Part shown: one piece after another, positions 9,996 to 43,573 of the stretch | How the letters are laid out: every line of letters begins with the position of its first letter | Numbering within the stretch: position 1 is the stretch's first letter | NCBI RefSeq assembly: GCF_004135385.1 | Contig: NZ_CP035493.1 | Location: 1,984,001-2,048,000 of the forward strand | DNA length: 64,000 bases | Direction: 5' to 3' | Source: Xylanimonas protaetiae | GTDB lineage: Bacteria; Actinomycetota; Actinomycetes; Actinomycetales; Cellulomonadaceae | The notes under the pieces: generated by a model | Seen by the model: only the letters and a program-made list of their open reading frames with translations | What the model was told of the DNA's origin: nothing | The model's database searches: none | Position numbers and translations under genes: made by a program

Positions 9996-10008
9996 GTTAC
10001 CCTGTGAC

Positions 10009-10111
10009 GGTCGCGACTGGCGCAGCCCCGTGGGTCCACAGGCACCGGGGCGGGTGGGTCACCACCAGGGAGCGACAACGCTGTGCAGACGACGGGTCGA
10101 ACGCCTGGGCC
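10009..10111 (+). promoter_or_regulatory. ZTP (pfl-type) riboswitch upstream of glyA-folD
   Basis: The conserved pieces of the ZTP/pfl aptamer occur in order: GGTCGCGACTGGCG (10009-10022), then GTGGGTCACCACCAGGGAGC (10054-10073), then a variable linker, then GAACGCCTGGGC (10099-10110). This RNA class senses ZTP/ZMP, the alarmone of 10-formyl-THF shortage, and typically precedes purH, folD and glyA. A TACCCT box at 9998-10003 places transcription start at about the first base of the aptamer. The hairpin 10137-10159 next to the glyA ribosome binding site may be the expression platform. Recognition is by memory of the consensus; a covariance-model search would settle it. Confidence 0.85.
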
Positions 10112-10136
10112 CGGGGTCGCCATGTCCACCGTCCGT

Positions 10137-39227: not shown

Positions 39228-39479
39228 TCAGGACAGCGCGAGCGCGGCCTTCACGTCGGCGAGCGACGGGTTGGTGGCCGCGGTGCCGTCCGGGTAGACG
39301 ACGGTCGGGACGACGCGGTTGCCCCCGTTGATGCTCGCGACGAGCTCGCCGGCGTCGGGGACGTCCTCGATGTCGACCTCGTTCCACGGGATCCCGGCGG
39401 ACCTGAGCGCCGTCTTGAGGGTGCGGCAGTACCCGCACCACGTCGTCGTGTACATGGTCAGGGCGGCGGCGTCGGCCAT
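39228..39479 (-). CDS. mrx1: Mycoredoxin (glutaredoxin-like)
   Basis: An 83-residue thioredoxin-fold oxidoreductase that uses mycothiol. The redox motif is WCGYC (about residues 14-18). The cis-Pro site is VVPTVVY (family form VPTV), and the C-terminal NPS tail is present. The ATG at 39479 has GGAG about 8 nt upstream. It is divergent from uvrD2, as in mycobacteria. Confidence 0.92.
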   Translation of the reverse strand: MADAAALTMYTTTWCGYCRTLKTALRSAGIPWNEVDIEDVPDAGELVASINGGNRVVPTVVYPDGTAATNPSLADVKAALALS

Positions 39480-39609: not shown

Positions 39610-41634
39610 ATGTCCAGCAGCCTCGCCACCCCTGACGCGATCCTCGACGCCCTCGACCCGGAGCAGCGTGAGGTCGCCACCGCGCTGCGCGGCCCCGTCG
39701 TCGTCCTCGCGGGCGCGGGCACGGGCAAGACGCGCGCGATCACCCACCGCATCGCCTACGGCGTGCGCACGGGCGTCTACAAGCCGAACACCGTCCTCGC
39801 GGTGACGTTCACCGCGCGCGCGGCGGGGGAGATGCGCACGCGCCTGCGCGAGCTCGGGGTGGCCGGCGTGCAGGCGCGCACGTTCCATGCGGCGGCGCTG
39901 CGGCAGCTCGGCTACTTCTGGCCCAAGGTCATCGGCGGCGCCCCGAGCCGCATCCTCGAGCACAAGGCGCCTCTCGTCGCCGAGGCGGCGCGGCTCGTCG
40001 GCGTCTCCGTGGACCGGGTCGCGGTGCGCGACCTCGCGAGCGAGATCGAGTGGGCCAAGGTGGGCCTGGTGGCCCCGGACGACTACGAGCGCCGCGCCCT
40101 GGCCGCCGGCCGCCCCGCCCCGGCGGGCTTCGACCACCACCAGGTCGCCCGCCTGGCCACGGCGTACGAGGACGTGAAGTCGGAGCGCGGCGTCATCGAC
40201 TTCGAGGACGTGCTGCAGATCCTCGCCGGCATCCTCACGGAGCACCGCGCGATCGCCGAGGAGGTGCGCGGCCAGTACCGCCACTTCGTCGTCGACGAGT
40301 ACCAGGACGTCTCCCCGCTCCAGCAGCTCCTGCTCGACCAGTGGCTCGGCGACCGCGTGGAGCTGTGCGTCGTCGGCGACCCGTCGCAGACCATCTACTC
40401 GTTCACGGGCGCCACGCCGCGGTACCTGCTCGAGTTCCGGCGCCGGTTCCCGCAGGCCCAGGAGGTCCGCCTGGTGCGCGACTACCGCTCGACACCCCAG
40501 GTGGTGCACCTCGCCAACGAGCTGCTGCGGCGCGGCAAGGTCACGGGCGCGCTCGAGCTGAGCGCGCAGCGCCCCGCCGGGGCGCCCGTGGCGTTCACGG
40601 CGTACGACGACGACGAGGCCGAGGCCGCGGGCGTCGCGGCGAAGGCGGCCCGCCTGGTCGCCACGGGCACGCGCCCGAGCGAGATCGCGGTGCTGTACCG
40701 CACCAACGCCCAGTCGGAGGCGTTCGAGGCCGCCCTGTCCGACGCCGGCATCGGCTACCAGGTGCGCGGCGGCGAGCGCTTCTTCCAGCGCAAGGAGGTG
40801 CGCGACGCCGTCGTCCTGCTGCGCGGGGCCGCCCGCTCGGCCGACCCCGCCCAGCCGATGCCCGAGCAGGTGCGCGACGTGCTCGTCACCACGGGCTGGC
40901 AGGAGAAGCCGCCCGCCGCCCGCGGCGCGGCCCGCGAGCGCTGGGACTCGATGCAGGCGCTGGTCGCCCTCGCCGACGACGTGGCCCGTGCGGCCGCGCG
41001 CGAGGACCGCACCCCGACGGTCGCGGACCTCGTGGCCGAGCTCGAGGAGCGGGCCGCCGCCCAGCACGCCCCGACGGTCGAGGGCGTCACGCTCGCCTCC
41101 CTGCACGCCGCGAAGGGCCTGGAGTGGGACGCGGTGTTCCTCGCGGGGGTGAGCGAGGGTCTCATGCCCATCTCGCTGGCAGAGACCGACGACGCCGTGG
41201 CCGAAGAACGGCGGCTGCTCTACGTGGGCGTGACGCGCGCCCGCGTGCACCTCGAGGTGTCGTTCGCGCGCGCCCGCGCGGGCAGCAACCGGGCCACCCG
41301 CAAGCGCACGCGGTTCCTCGACGGCCTGTGGCCGGAGCCGGGCGCGGTGCGGTCCGCCGTCCGCGGAAGGTCGCGCGAGCTGCTCACCGGGGACCACGAC
41401 CCGGAGCTCTTCGCGGCGCTGCGTGAATGGCGCCGCCAGGTGGCCGCCGAGATCGACAAGCCCGCCTACACGGTGCTGACGGACGCGGTGCTCGCGGAGG
41501 TCGCCGAGGTGCGTCCCACCAGCACGATGCAGCTGGCCCGGATCCACGGGATCGGGCCCGCGAAGATCGACCGGTACGGCGCGGCGGTGCTCGCCGTGGT
41601 GGCGTCAGCGACGGGCTCGGGAAGTTCTCGATAA
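39610..41634 (+). CDS. uvrD2: ATP-dependent DNA helicase UvrD2-like (SF1, HRDC)
   Basis: A 674-residue 3'-5' helicase of SF1. Walker A is LAGAGTGKTRAI, with TFTARAAGEM, VVDEYQDVSP, VVGDPSQTIYSFTG, LHAAKGLEWD and YVGVTRAR. It has a C-terminal HRDC domain (about residues 590-665, LARIHGIGPAKIDRYG). The four-cysteine module that joins the motor to HRDC in mycobacterial UvrD2 is absent; that linker has no cysteine at all. ATG at 39610 has GAGAAT 8 nt upstream. It sits immediately upstream of the whiB7 promoter. Confidence 0.93.
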   Translation: MSSSLATPDAILDALDPEQREVATALRGPVVVLAGAGTGKTRAITHRIAYGVRTGVYKPNTVLAVTFTARAAGEMRTRLRELGVAGVQARTFHAAALRQLGYFWPKVIGGAPSRILEHKAPLVAEAARLVGVSVDRVAVRDLASEIEWAKVGLVAPDDYERRALAAGRPAPAGFDHHQVARLATAYEDVKSERGVIDFEDVLQILAGILTEHRAIAEEVRGQYRHFVVDEYQDVSPLQQLLLDQWLGDRVELCVVGDPSQTIYSFTGATPRYLLEFRRRFPQAQEVRLVRDYRSTPQVVHLANELLRRGKVTGALELSAQRPAGAPVAFTAYDDDEAEAAGVAAKAARLVATGTRPSEIAVLYRTNAQSEAFEAALSDAGIGYQVRGGERFFQRKEVRDAVVLLRGAARSADPAQPMPEQVRDVLVTTGWQEKPPAARGAARERWDSMQALVALADDVARAAAREDRTPTVADLVAELEERAAAQHAPTVEGVTLASLHAAKGLEWDAVFLAGVSEGLMPISLAETDDAVAEERRLLYVGVTRARVHLEVSFARARAGSNRATRKRTRFLDGLWPEPGAVRSAVRGRSRELLTGDHDPELFAALREWRRQVAAEIDKPAYTVLTDAVLAEVAEVRPTSTMQLARIHGIGPAKIDRYGAAVLAVVASATGSGSSR

Positions 41635-41670
41635 ATAGGTTGTGTGGTCCTGCGGGGTCAGGTCTATCCT
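41631..41670 (+). promoter_or_regulatory. whiB7 promoter with upstream AT tract
   Basis: ATAAATAGGTTGTGTGG (41631-41647) then TATCCT at 41665-41670. An AT-rich patch directly before a weak GTGT-type -35 is the known mark of promoters activated by WhiB7 itself with SigA. This implies positive autoregulation. Confidence 0.7.
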
Positions 41671-41739
41671 CGGAGAGTCCCTGAACGAGGAGGCGCGCGC
41701 CGCGAGGCCACGCCCGAGCGCCCGAAGGAGGTGGAAGCT

Positions 41740-41928
41740 GTGGAGATCATGAACAACCAGACGATGGCCGTCGCTACGCCCACGCATGCCCTGGGCTTTG
41801 ACGCGCCGTCGCGTCTGCGTGCGTTCACGTCCCAGCGTGCGGGCTACAAGTCCGTCGCCGTGAAGCACACGTGGATCGACGGCATCCGCCTCGCCCCCGA
41901 CTCCGCCCCCAGGAACCCTCCGGCGTAA
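41740..41928 (+). CDS. whiB7 leader peptide (upstream ORF), 62 codons
   Basis: A small ORF starting GTG at 41740, with AAGGAGG at 41725-41731, the best ribosome binding site in this part of the window. The product begins VEIMNNQTMAVATPTHALG and ends SAPRNPPA, with no signal or domain. Its stop is 15 nt before the intrinsic terminator stem at 41944. In mycobacteria and Streptomyces, translation of a whiB7 upstream ORF controls read-through of such a terminator when antibiotics slow ribosomes. The same mechanism is inferred here. A longer frame to 41644 lies before the ribosome binding site and is not favoured. Confidence 0.72.
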   Translation: MEIMNNQTMAVATPTHALGFDAPSRLRAFTSQRAGYKSVAVKHTWIDGIRLAPDSAPRNPPA

Positions 41929-41943
41929 CCGCCGAAGCACCCA

Positions 41944-41982
41944 GGCCGCGGAGTCCACCCAGGATCCGCGGCCTTTCTGTTT
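41944..41982 (+). terminator. Intrinsic terminator / attenuator before whiB7
   Basis: GGCCGCGGA (41944-41952) pairs with TCCGCGGCC (41965-41973), followed by TTTCTGTTT (41974-41982). A real T tract is rare in this GC-rich window. It lies between the leader ORF and whiB7, the attenuator position. Confidence 0.85.
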
Positions 41983-42076
41983 CATCAGGCTGGACGAGCA
42001 GCCACCGATGAGCCAGAGCCGGGCCGTCGGTCCTGAAAAGCCGAAGACGACTTTGAAGAACCTGACGGAGGAACTC

Positions 42077-42487
42077 GTGCGACTCGCGCACCTTCTGGAC
42101 GAGCGCTACCTGGAGACAGCTCCCGGTGCCGCTGCCTGGACGCCTCACCAACCCCTGCCCACCGACACCACCATCGACACGGCCTTCGAGGCCGTGATCA
42201 GCGGCGCCATCCCGTGCCGCACCGGCGACCCGGAGCTCTGGTTCGCCGAGCACACGGCCCAGGTCGAGCAGGCCAAGGCCCTGTGCCGGACCTGCCCGCT
42301 CCAGGCGGGCTGCCTCGCCGGCGCGATCGACCGCGCCGAGCCCTGGGGCGTCTGGGGCGGCGAGGTGTTCGTGGACGGCGTCGTCGTCGCGCGCAAGCGT
42401 GGCCGCGGCCGTCCCCGCAAGAACGAGCAGCAGCTGCCTGCTGCTCCTGCCGCTGCGGCGGTGGCTTCGGCCACCGCCGCGGCGTGA
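42077..42487 (+). CDS. whiB7: WhiB7-type redox/antibiotic-stress transcription factor
   Basis: A small Fe-S transcription factor that works with SigA and induces intrinsic drug-resistance genes. Four cluster cysteines: IPCRTG, ALCRTCPLQAGC. The GVWGG turn (EPWGVWGGEVF) and the AT-hook RGRPRK, specific for WhiB7, are intact, with an Ala-rich tail. The GTG at 42077 (136 residues) is chosen because GGAGG lies at 42067-42071. An in-frame ATG at 42008 (159 residues) has only a weak site. Expression is expected to be autoactivated and attenuated by the leader at 41740-41982. Confidence 0.9.
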   Translation: MRLAHLLDERYLETAPGAAAWTPHQPLPTDTTIDTAFEAVISGAIPCRTGDPELWFAEHTAQVEQAKALCRTCPLQAGCLAGAIDRAEPWGVWGGEVFVDGVVVARKRGRGRPRKNEQQLPAAPAAAAVASATAAA

Positions 42488-42526
42488 CCCTCACGCGGCT
42501 CCGGCCGCGCCGGGCCGCGTGAGGGT
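42487..42526. terminator. Hairpin at convergent 3' ends of whiB7 and ThiF-like gene
   Basis: ACCCTCACGCGGC (42487-42499) pairs with its complement at 42514-42526. The stem starts on the last base of whiB7 and covers the last codons of the opposite gene. Confidence 0.65.
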
Positions 42527-43573
42527 TCCCCCCAGCACCACACAGCCGCACCTCGGGTGCGGTGCCAGCCCGCTGACCTGCGGCAACGCCTGCGGCAGCG
42601 CGAGCTCGACCGTCGCCCCCGCCGTCGCGGGCCGCACCCCGTCGAGGTGTGCGAGCACCTGCGCCCCCGCCACCGCCGCCGCGCTCGCCGCGAGCGTGGT
42701 CTCCTGCGGCGCCTCCGTCGCCTGACGCAGCTGGGCCGCGAGCGCCGGCCACGCCGGGTCGTCGTCGGCCCGCGCCAGGTCGGCGCACCGCGCGCACGCC
42801 GTGCGCCCCGGCAGCACGAACGGCCCGACGACGACGTCCGCCTCCCGGACCGTGACCGTCAGGTGCGCCACCCCGTCGCCCAGGAGGCGCGCGTACCGCG
42901 CGGGCGCGGTCGCGTGCGTCTCGACGAGGACGACGACGTCGGCGCTCCCGTCGGGGCGGGTGCGCACGTGCGCCGCGGCACGACCCAGCACGTCGGCGAG
43001 CGCCACGCGGCGTGGCCGGCCGACGTCGGCCGGCGTGTAGCCGCCGAGCCCGAGGTCGGTGGTCTGCACGGCGCCGGCGTCGGCGAGCACGAGCGTGCCG
43101 ACGCCCGCGGTGGCCAGGTGCAGGGCGACGGCCGCGCCCAGCCGTCCGAGGCCGGCGACCGCGACCGACGCCCGGGCGCGTCGCGCGAGCGTGGCGCGGC
43201 CCGCGCCGTCGGGCCGCAGGGCGCCGAGCGCGGTCGCGTCGGCGGCGCCGTCGGCCGGGGCCAGCACGGTCGCCGTGCGGGAGGCCGGGTCGGCGGGAAG
43301 CAGGAACCCGCCGGTGCGCAGCAGCCGGACCACCTCGTCGCGGCGCGCGGGCCGCACGCCGTGCCGCTCTGCCGCGGCGGCCGGGGACGTGTGCCGGCGC
43401 GTGGCCAGCTCGCGCAGCCAGGCCACCTCCGCCGGGTCCAGGCCGGCGAGGCGCAGCGCCCAGCGGGGGTCGGTGCCGAGCTGCACCTCGCCCTGGCCGC
43501 GGTCGAGCACGGGCATGCCGGCGCGCATCCGCAGCCGGTCGCTGGTGGGTTCACGGGGCGCGTCGGTGGTCAC
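42491..43573 (-). CDS. ThiF/E1-like (cyclodehydratase-type) protein
   Basis: A 360-residue protein with an N-terminal winged-helix-like part (about residues 15-95) and an E1/ThiF Rossmann core (VAVAGLGRLGAAVALHLATA, LADAGAVQTTDLG). It has cysteine pairs CARCADLARADDDPAW and RCGCVV that could bind zinc. It resembles the E1-like part of azole-forming cyclodehydratases and the protein next to whiB7 in mycobacteria (Rv3196, recalled). No YcaO protein, precursor peptide or transporter is nearby, so no peptide product is claimed. The start is GTG at 43573. Confidence 0.75.
   Translation of the reverse strand: MTTDAPREPTSDRLRMRAGMPVLDRGQGEVQLGTDPRWALRLAGLDPAEVAWLRELATRRHTSPAAAAERHGVRPARRDEVVRLLRTGGFLLPADPASRTATVLAPADGAADATALGALRPDGAGRATLARRARASVAVAGLGRLGAAVALHLATAGVGTLVLADAGAVQTTDLGLGGYTPADVGRPRRVALADVLGRAAAHVRTRPDGSADVVVLVETHATAPARYARLLGDGVAHLTVTVREADVVVGPFVLPGRTACARCADLARADDDPAWPALAAQLRQATEAPQETTLAASAAAVAGAQVLAHLDGVRPATAGATVELALPQALPQVSGLAPHPRCGCVVLGGTLTRPGAAGAA

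Follow-up and report, generated by a model that had tools for sequence, protein, structure and literature searches.

How does the leader of whiB7 in Xylanimonas protaetiae sense antibiotics, and does the small peptide encoded in it take part in the sensing? whiB7 is a central regulator of intrinsic antibiotic resistance in actinobacteria, and the attenuator with an upstream open reading frame (uORF) that precedes whiB7/wblC in mycobacteria and Streptomyces was reportedly described by Burian and Thompson in 2018 and by Lee, Lee and Roe in 2022. The locus studied here lies in a stretch of 64,000 nucleotides (nt) of contig NZ_CP035493.1, referred to as the window, in a genome of 3.86 Mb consisting of one contig. 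An earlier note, made from the sequence alone, had claimed that the same sensing operates at this locus and that the leader peptide may hold the stall codons. Very probably, ribosomes control the transcription of whiB7 at this locus through an attenuator of the type that is known to precede whiB7/wblC. Regarding the peptide, we rather favour the view that Arg25-Leu26-Arg27 is a +X+ arrest site added to this attenuator, +X+ being defined as Arg or Lys at positions i and i+2. +X+ motifs stall macrolide- and ketolide-bound ribosomes, Arg-x-Arg is the stronger arrest among their types, and one is used in the leader peptide ErmDL (PMC8298421).

To compare the leader peptides, 84 leaders of the window's family group (f1) were examined and 78 were kept (5 had no terminator and 1 no uORF), while 117 of the 129 examined class loci were kept (3 had no recognisable WhiB7 motif, 2 no terminator and 7 no uORF). 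Clustering at below 50% identity inside three groups gave 17 representatives of the window's subgroup, 12 of other f1 leaders and 72 of the rest of the class, that is 101 representatives. Across the groups one pair reached at least 50% identity, leaving 100 representatives mutually below that value. The +X+ hypothesis came from the f1 and class leaders, and 100 fresh loci, which share no genomes with them according to the list of duplicates, were fetched later. After 1, 6 and 8 of these had been dropped, 85 were kept, and the 54 non-redundant uORFs among them share less than 50% identity with one another and with the first set. The rules for terminator, uORF and motif were identical in the discovery and fresh sets, while whiB7 was located by match position in f1, by a protein motif in the class and by the same motif with another tie-break in the fresh set. 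Expected values come from residue-by-residue shuffles of the peptides, 200 of them in the 'all fresh' rows of the fresh-set test.

The +X+ motif was present in 88 of the 101 discovery representatives, with 48.8 expected (z 8.6), namely in 17/17 of the window's subgroup (8.3 expected), 10/12 of the other f1 uORFs (6.6) and 61/72 of the rest (34.5 ± 3.9). By peptide count, the spacings i+1, i+3, i+4 and i+5 stayed near expectation in these representatives. The fresh set replicated the excess (47/54, 28.8 ± 3.2 expected, reached by 0 of 1000 shuffles), its spacings other than i+2 being flat, and removal of the too-similar row left 87/100 (48.7 expected) and 47/54 (28.5), or 134/154 when pooled (77.5 expected, reached by 0 of 500 shuffles). 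When the last 12 residues were left out, R..R at spacing 2 ranked first of all residue pairs at spacings 1 to 6 (61 vs 27.0, z 8.3); when they were included, W..P at spacing 3 outranked it. Altogether 247 of 280 uORFs carry +X+, which is found in the majority of uORFs in 25 of 29 families and in 29/29 uORFs of f8, a family that, from motifs, we take to be Mycobacteriaceae. By these counts, no other spaced residue pair in the whiB7 uORFs gives as strong a signal as Arg-x-Arg once the last 12 residues are set aside, and this lends specific support to the earlier suggestion of stall codons in the peptide. The long open reading frames (ORFs) of the window, taken as 214 chunks, had no i+2 excess (125 vs 123.7), with i+3 at 139 vs 121.8. 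A Gln-Gly motif that was raised in the discovery set (35/101 vs 16.3) was rejected on the fresh set (14/54 vs 11.4).

An excess of Arg could also be read as a sensor of arginine (charged tRNA-Arg) starvation, in which the Arg codons would play the part that Trp codons have in the trp leader. Such a sensor would agree with the induction of whiB7/wblC by amino-acid starvation (PMC11550727) and with the Arg content of the uORFs (7.6% of residues when the start and the last 12 are not counted), but we regard it as improbable, because adjacent Arg/Lys residues are not enriched by peptide count (54/101 vs 49.1 and 28/54 vs 29.0) and only i+2 is. Besides, in 155 uORFs not only RxR (109 vs 56.0 expected) but also KxR was raised, the latter mildly (28 vs 17.5), RxK and KxK not being enriched. 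By inspection, the Arg codons of the motif were not visibly skewed towards AGA, AGG or CGA when compared with other uORF Arg codons.

Alignment of the leaders, suggested by the earlier note as a way to find conserved codons and alternative pairing, revealed conserved positions of two kinds. In 61 aligned f1 uORFs, the columns of at least 60% identity are M1, N5, G19, R25, R27, G35, A52-P57 and P61-A62. Arg25 is conserved in 98% and Arg27 in 87% of them and, as far as the aligned sequences tell, Arg-x-Arg is conserved as amino acids with the codons varying. The stretch A52-P57, on the other hand, holds one arm of an antiterminator, and its codons are frozen: GACTCC is identical in 59/59 Asp-Ser-(Ala/Val/Leu) blocks, compared with 54 GAC and 56 GAT among the other Asp codons of the same uORFs. 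Judged by these codons, the Asp-Ser stretch is conserved for RNA pairing, and therefore the C-terminal APDSAP, considered as a conserved peptide, was not counted as a peptide signal. As this arm and a hairpin at the stop codon constrain parts of the uORF as RNA, the R-x-R codons might likewise belong to an RNA element. This appears quite improbable to us, since RxR is encoded by 41 different 9-mers in the f1 uORFs, the distance from motif to arm varies, and the other reading frames are without a comparable signal except for a weaker i+2 excess in one reverse frame (82/101 vs 63.5, z 4.2). The latter may mirror the CG-rich Arg codons. In the remaining frames i+2 reached at most z 2.3 by peptide count, though in two of them total counts were raised at nearly all spacings.

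The antiterminator arm inside the uORF, GACTCCGC, exactly complements GCGGAGTC in the 5′ arm of the terminator. For 41890-41960 the predicted fold is the antiterminator, inside which a hairpin carries the uORF stop codon as part of its loop (−28.8 kcal/mol, z −4.1). The antiterminator helix also belongs to the best fold of 41832-41960, the RNA that would be free downstream of a ribosome held at Arg-Leu-Arg (RLR). Over 155 leaders, the stop-spanning hairpin scored 13.11 vs 8.58 for shuffled sequences and was higher in 124 (p 3.7e-19). Of the 84 f1 leaders examined, 79 have a terminator by the looser rule, and in the 55 nt ending 20 nt before the terminator core 65 of them contain GACTCCG and 53 contain GACTCCGC. 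The families of the class have different terminator arms, among them GGCCGCGGAACCC and GGCCACGGAC, and changes in the terminator arm are accompanied by changes in the uORF arm (e.g., GGGGTCCGT, GTCCGTGG, TGGGGTCC and GGGTGCC). The uORF segment paired more strongly with the terminator of its own leader than with terminators from other families (mean 18.35 vs 15.38), the score for the own terminator being higher in 74 of 101 (Wilcoxon p 7.4e-11), including 17/17 of the window's subgroup and 47/72 of the rest of the class. A genome-wide search for the combined pattern (arm, terminator arm, T-rich tract) yielded a single exact match. Alternative pairing is thus predicted from the sequence, and the architecture recurs across Actinomycetia with family-specific matching arms.

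The uORFs of the class often end in Pro-Pro-Val/Ala-stop, with Pro at the second last position in 55/101 representatives and 29/54 fresh uORFs and at the third last position in 50/101 representatives. These terminal Pro residues may slow the ribosome at the stop codon, or they may partly reflect the stop hairpin.

A tentative alternative, which we consider less likely, is that the attenuator is a generic translation-coupled one, for which any slowing of the ribosome suffices and +X+ is incidental. It would suit the fact that whiB7/wblC responds not only to amino-acid starvation but also to several classes of drugs (PMC11550727, PMC12121999), as well as the 33 of 280 uORFs that have no +X+, while neither an i+2-specific excess in two sets nor conserved Arg columns with varying codons would be expected of an incidental feature. 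The same 33 uORFs head a list of observations that weigh against the attenuator with an added arrest site. In some families +X+ is scarce or absent (f17 1/5, f20 11/19, f10 0/1, f35 0/2, f37 0/1), and among the other f1 uORFs without their last 12 residues it is weaker (8/12 vs 5.2, reached by 82 of 1000 shuffles). Total counts at i+1 were mildly raised in the discovery set (88 vs 68.0, z 2.8), as was i+6 in the rest of the class (42 vs 33.0, 17 of 1000 shuffles); by peptide count, both excesses are absent from the fresh set. Of the 88 representatives with the motif, 77 have one that lies at least 15 nt upstream of the predicted arm, while the others have it nearer to the arm, over it or after it, and the spacing between motif and arm varies so widely that no fixed geometry is under selection. 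Pairing with the own terminator was no better than cross-family pairing in 27/101, and only 123/280 leaders had a perfectly pairing arm of 7 nt or more. Finally, the RLR of ErmDL is critical for telithromycin arrest and dispensable for erythromycin arrest (PMC8298421). In 71/101 uORFs (39.6 expected) and 43/54 fresh uORFs (23.6), the second + residue precedes the stop by 17 codons or more, so that the antiterminator arm would not be covered by a ribosome halted at this residue. Weighing all this, it seems reasonably probable that the whiB7 leader peptides of Actinomycetia are macrolide-arrest peptides, with a conserved Arg-x-Arg, mostly upstream of the arm, as the stall site.

The leaders of f17 (L197-L200 and L263) keep the terminator and the uORF, mostly without +X+, and offer a natural comparison for the role of the motif.

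Turning to the elements of the locus (Table 1), reading of the sequence confirmed the 62-codon leader ORF and the terminator with its T tract that the earlier note had placed before whiB7. Relatives have ORFs at the position of the uORF, some with recognisable homology to it. From the first nucleotide of the uORF stop codon to the GGCC core the distance is 18 nt, the median in 155 leaders being 26 nt (5th-95th percentile 17.7-31), and 14 nt separate the stop codon from the terminator stem. The terminator folds with −24.9 kcal/mol (z −5.4 vs dinucleotide shuffles, of which 1/200 folds as well). A consensus terminator scan, whose loop limit is 8 nt, did not report 41943-41982. The terminator core is GGCCGCGGAGTCC here and GGCCGCGGAACCC or GGCCACGG in many other leaders of the class. 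Its pair 5 is compensatory, with G-C in 233, A-T in 31 and G-T in 6 of 270 leaders when the 3′ arm is taken as the best-pairing 8-mer and the 10 of 280 leaders without a core match are excluded. The strict terminator rule missed 12 of 84 f1 leaders, some of them owing to a G-U pair or a different core. The uORF, the terminator and the pairing arm all recur in relatives, which argues that they are not there by chance.

The AT tract and the TATCCT that the earlier note described as a promoter were found as well, and they would make a putative WhiB7-responsive promoter. In the relatives inspected, an AT-rich tract followed by a GTTG- or GTGG-like sequence can be seen by eye; the WblC box has been published as GAAAWY, located 3 nt upstream of the −35 (PMC7157823, legend of Figure 8). 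TAnnnT occurs 55-90 nt upstream of the uORF start in 75/78 f1 leaders, a raw count without a chance level. That whiB7 is instead transcribed from a promoter downstream of 41982, the leader being vestigial, is extremely improbable, as the leader is conserved in the family. No sigma-70-type site was found in 41000-43000 either, which is a weak argument because the same scan misses the upstream promoter. Between promoter and uORF, a small GNRA-capped hairpin in the 5′ untranslated region (UTR) recurs in 50/78 f1 leaders (4.0 in shuffles) and could be a polymerase pause site. It is unsupported as a class-wide feature (4/72 class representatives, 1.8 in shuffles; 9/54 fresh uORFs, 2.2 in shuffles), and the whole 5′ UTR of the window folds no better than shuffles (z +1.75). 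Compared with Rfam, the leader matched no family at gathering score.

The downstream gene is whiB7, as claimed: its product has the Pfam domains Whib (3.5e-15) and AT_hook (0.0025), both over cut-offs, while NCBIfam gave no hit up to E 1. Of 150 family genomes, 142 have a match to it at E ≤ 1e-20. In the class, 167/196 genomes have a WhiB7 match at E ≤ 1e-14, and 10 listed genomes of f5, a family of the same order, have none at this value. The gene probably starts at GTG 42077 and not at ATG 42008, judging from 20 loci inspected: GGAGG or a similar site and GTG recur at the start, and the frame upstream of the GTG position has a stop in 6 of the 20 (L036, L061, L062, L070, L093 and L139). Upstream of the whiB7 locus lies a gene for a UvrD-type helicase with an HRDC domain, and the start of this ORF is adjoined by an ORF with a Glutaredoxin domain (39228-39479, minus strand, Pfam 2.3e-10). 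Elsewhere in the window, a ZMP/ZTP riboswitch at 10003-10117 (plus strand) was barely over the Rfam gathering score (40.4 vs 39).

Table 1. Features of the whiB7 locus, with positions in the window.
Feature	Position	Strand	Basis
AT-rich WhiB7-type box and −35 region (GATAAATAGGTTGTGT)	41630..41645	+	assigned by eye, inferred
−10 hexamer TATCCT	41665..41670	+	sequence reading
GNRA-capped small hairpin GCC-GCGA-GGC, 5′ UTR	41699..41708	+	pattern count in leaders vs shuffles
Shine-Dalgarno (SD) AAGGAGG of leader ORF	41725..41731	+	8 nt before GTG 41740; SD score 9
Leader ORF (uORF), GTG start, 62 codons, TAA stop 41926-41928	41740..41928	+	same-place ORFs in relatives
Codons 25-27 Arg-Leu-Arg, predicted +X+ stall site (Leu26 P site, Arg27 A site)	41812..41820	+	
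Antiterminator 5′ arm GACTCCGC, inside uORF, codons for Asp-Ser-Ala	41899..41906	+	pairing, fold, relatives
Hairpin CGGCG-TAAC-CGCCG, uORF stop codon in loop	41921..41934	+	fold, score vs shuffles
Intrinsic terminator, 10-bp stem (AGGCCGCGGA 41943-41952 with TCCGCGGCCT 41965-41974), then TTTCTGTTT ending 41982; T tract 41974-41982	41943..41982	+	sequence, fold, relatives
Antiterminator 3′ arm GCGGAGTC, shared with terminator 5′ arm	41948..41955	+	pairing, fold
Shine-Dalgarno GGAGG of whiB7	42067..42071	+	precedes GTG 42077
whiB7 coding sequence, likely start GTG 42077	42077..42487	+	Pfam, relatives' frames

Given the uORF, the terminator, the arm matching its own terminator, the stop hairpin and the amino-acid-level R-x-R in the sequence, we infer an order of folding, a drug-dependent stall at RLR and an effect on whiB7 as follows. 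RNA polymerase would start near 41677, as judged from the −10 hexamer, and a ribosome would load at AAGGAGG and translate the leader. A ribosome that arrives at the stop codon in time would cover the RNA at 41899-41955, the terminator would form and transcription would end near 41982. When a block or stall further upstream keeps the ribosome from getting there, GACTCCGC would pair with GCGGAGTC, no terminator would form and whiB7 would be transcribed, its product then acting back on the whiB7 promoter. Since the block by macrolides is limited to some peptides, a drug-bound ribosome could read through a generic leader. With the motif in place, a macrolide-bound ribosome would stop at Arg25-Leu26-Arg27, 81 nt before the antiterminator arm, and bring about antitermination and expression of whiB7. 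We propose that by forcing this stop +X+ turns a general translation-coupled attenuator into a dependable macrolide sensor. If this is true, one short ORF would be under two selections, one for RNA pairing at its 3′ end and one for an arrest motif upstream. The +X+ reading would account for the peptide signal that RNA pairing leaves unexplained, and it names the codons to inspect in drug sensing by whiB7 leaders. It also predicts which drugs depend on the motif (macrolides and ketolides) and which do not (tetracycline and start-codon stallers).

Several known systems resemble this locus in part. The attenuators of whiB7/wblC consist of a uORF, a Rho-independent terminator and an antiterminator made from overlapping uORF and terminator sequence (PMC10727445, PMC11550727, PMC4128351); termination is favoured while the uORF is being translated, and antitermination of whiB7/wblC when antibiotics or starvation disturb this translation (PMC11550727, PMC10727445, PMC13393426). 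The window has the same parts, judging by sequence and predicted fold: a uORF led by a Shine-Dalgarno site near a Rho-independent terminator, an overlapping antiterminator and a whiB7 orthologue downstream. With these parts recurring in relatives, the claim of sensing as in mycobacteria and Streptomyces is well supported by comparison. The window differs from the known attenuators in its leader peptide, its terminator core GGCCGCGGAGTCC and its arm GACTCCGC. The peptide had been called unlike those of the known genera, which stands for most of its residues, as these diverge, but not for the architecture, the stop position and +X+, which are shared.

ErmDL likewise has R-L-R in a leader ORF, with Leu predicted in the P site and the second Arg in the A site (PMC8298421), and the window's RLR at codons 25-27 has the Arg/Lys-x-Arg/Lys of this class. 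In ErmDL, however, RLR comprises residues 6-8 and stalling refolds the mRNA in favour of ermD expression, whereas here it comprises residues 25-27 and the predicted outcome is transcription antitermination of a regulator gene. toiL, the uORF of E. coli topAI, resembles the whiB7 leaders in that one uORF senses several classes of ribosome drugs, but it works by regulated Rho termination, without a terminator/antiterminator of the whiB7 type (PMC12121999). are5sc and tiaA of Streptomyces coelicolor are also actinomycete ribosome-mediated attenuators of antibiotic resistance, but their uORFs have 3-9 residues, and in toeprinting the LSAP drugs inhibit and erythromycin does not (PMC12421871). Stalling of ribosomes by antibiotics within the whiB7 uORF was stated in 2025 to be untested (PMC12121999), and in the available parts of the literature on attenuation, stalling and arrest at this uORF we found no description of a +X+ motif, so its novelty is provisional. 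The attenuator itself is already known, the window's being another member, and the comparison of sequences suggests that what is new here is the +X+ motif in the leader peptide as a predicted stall site.

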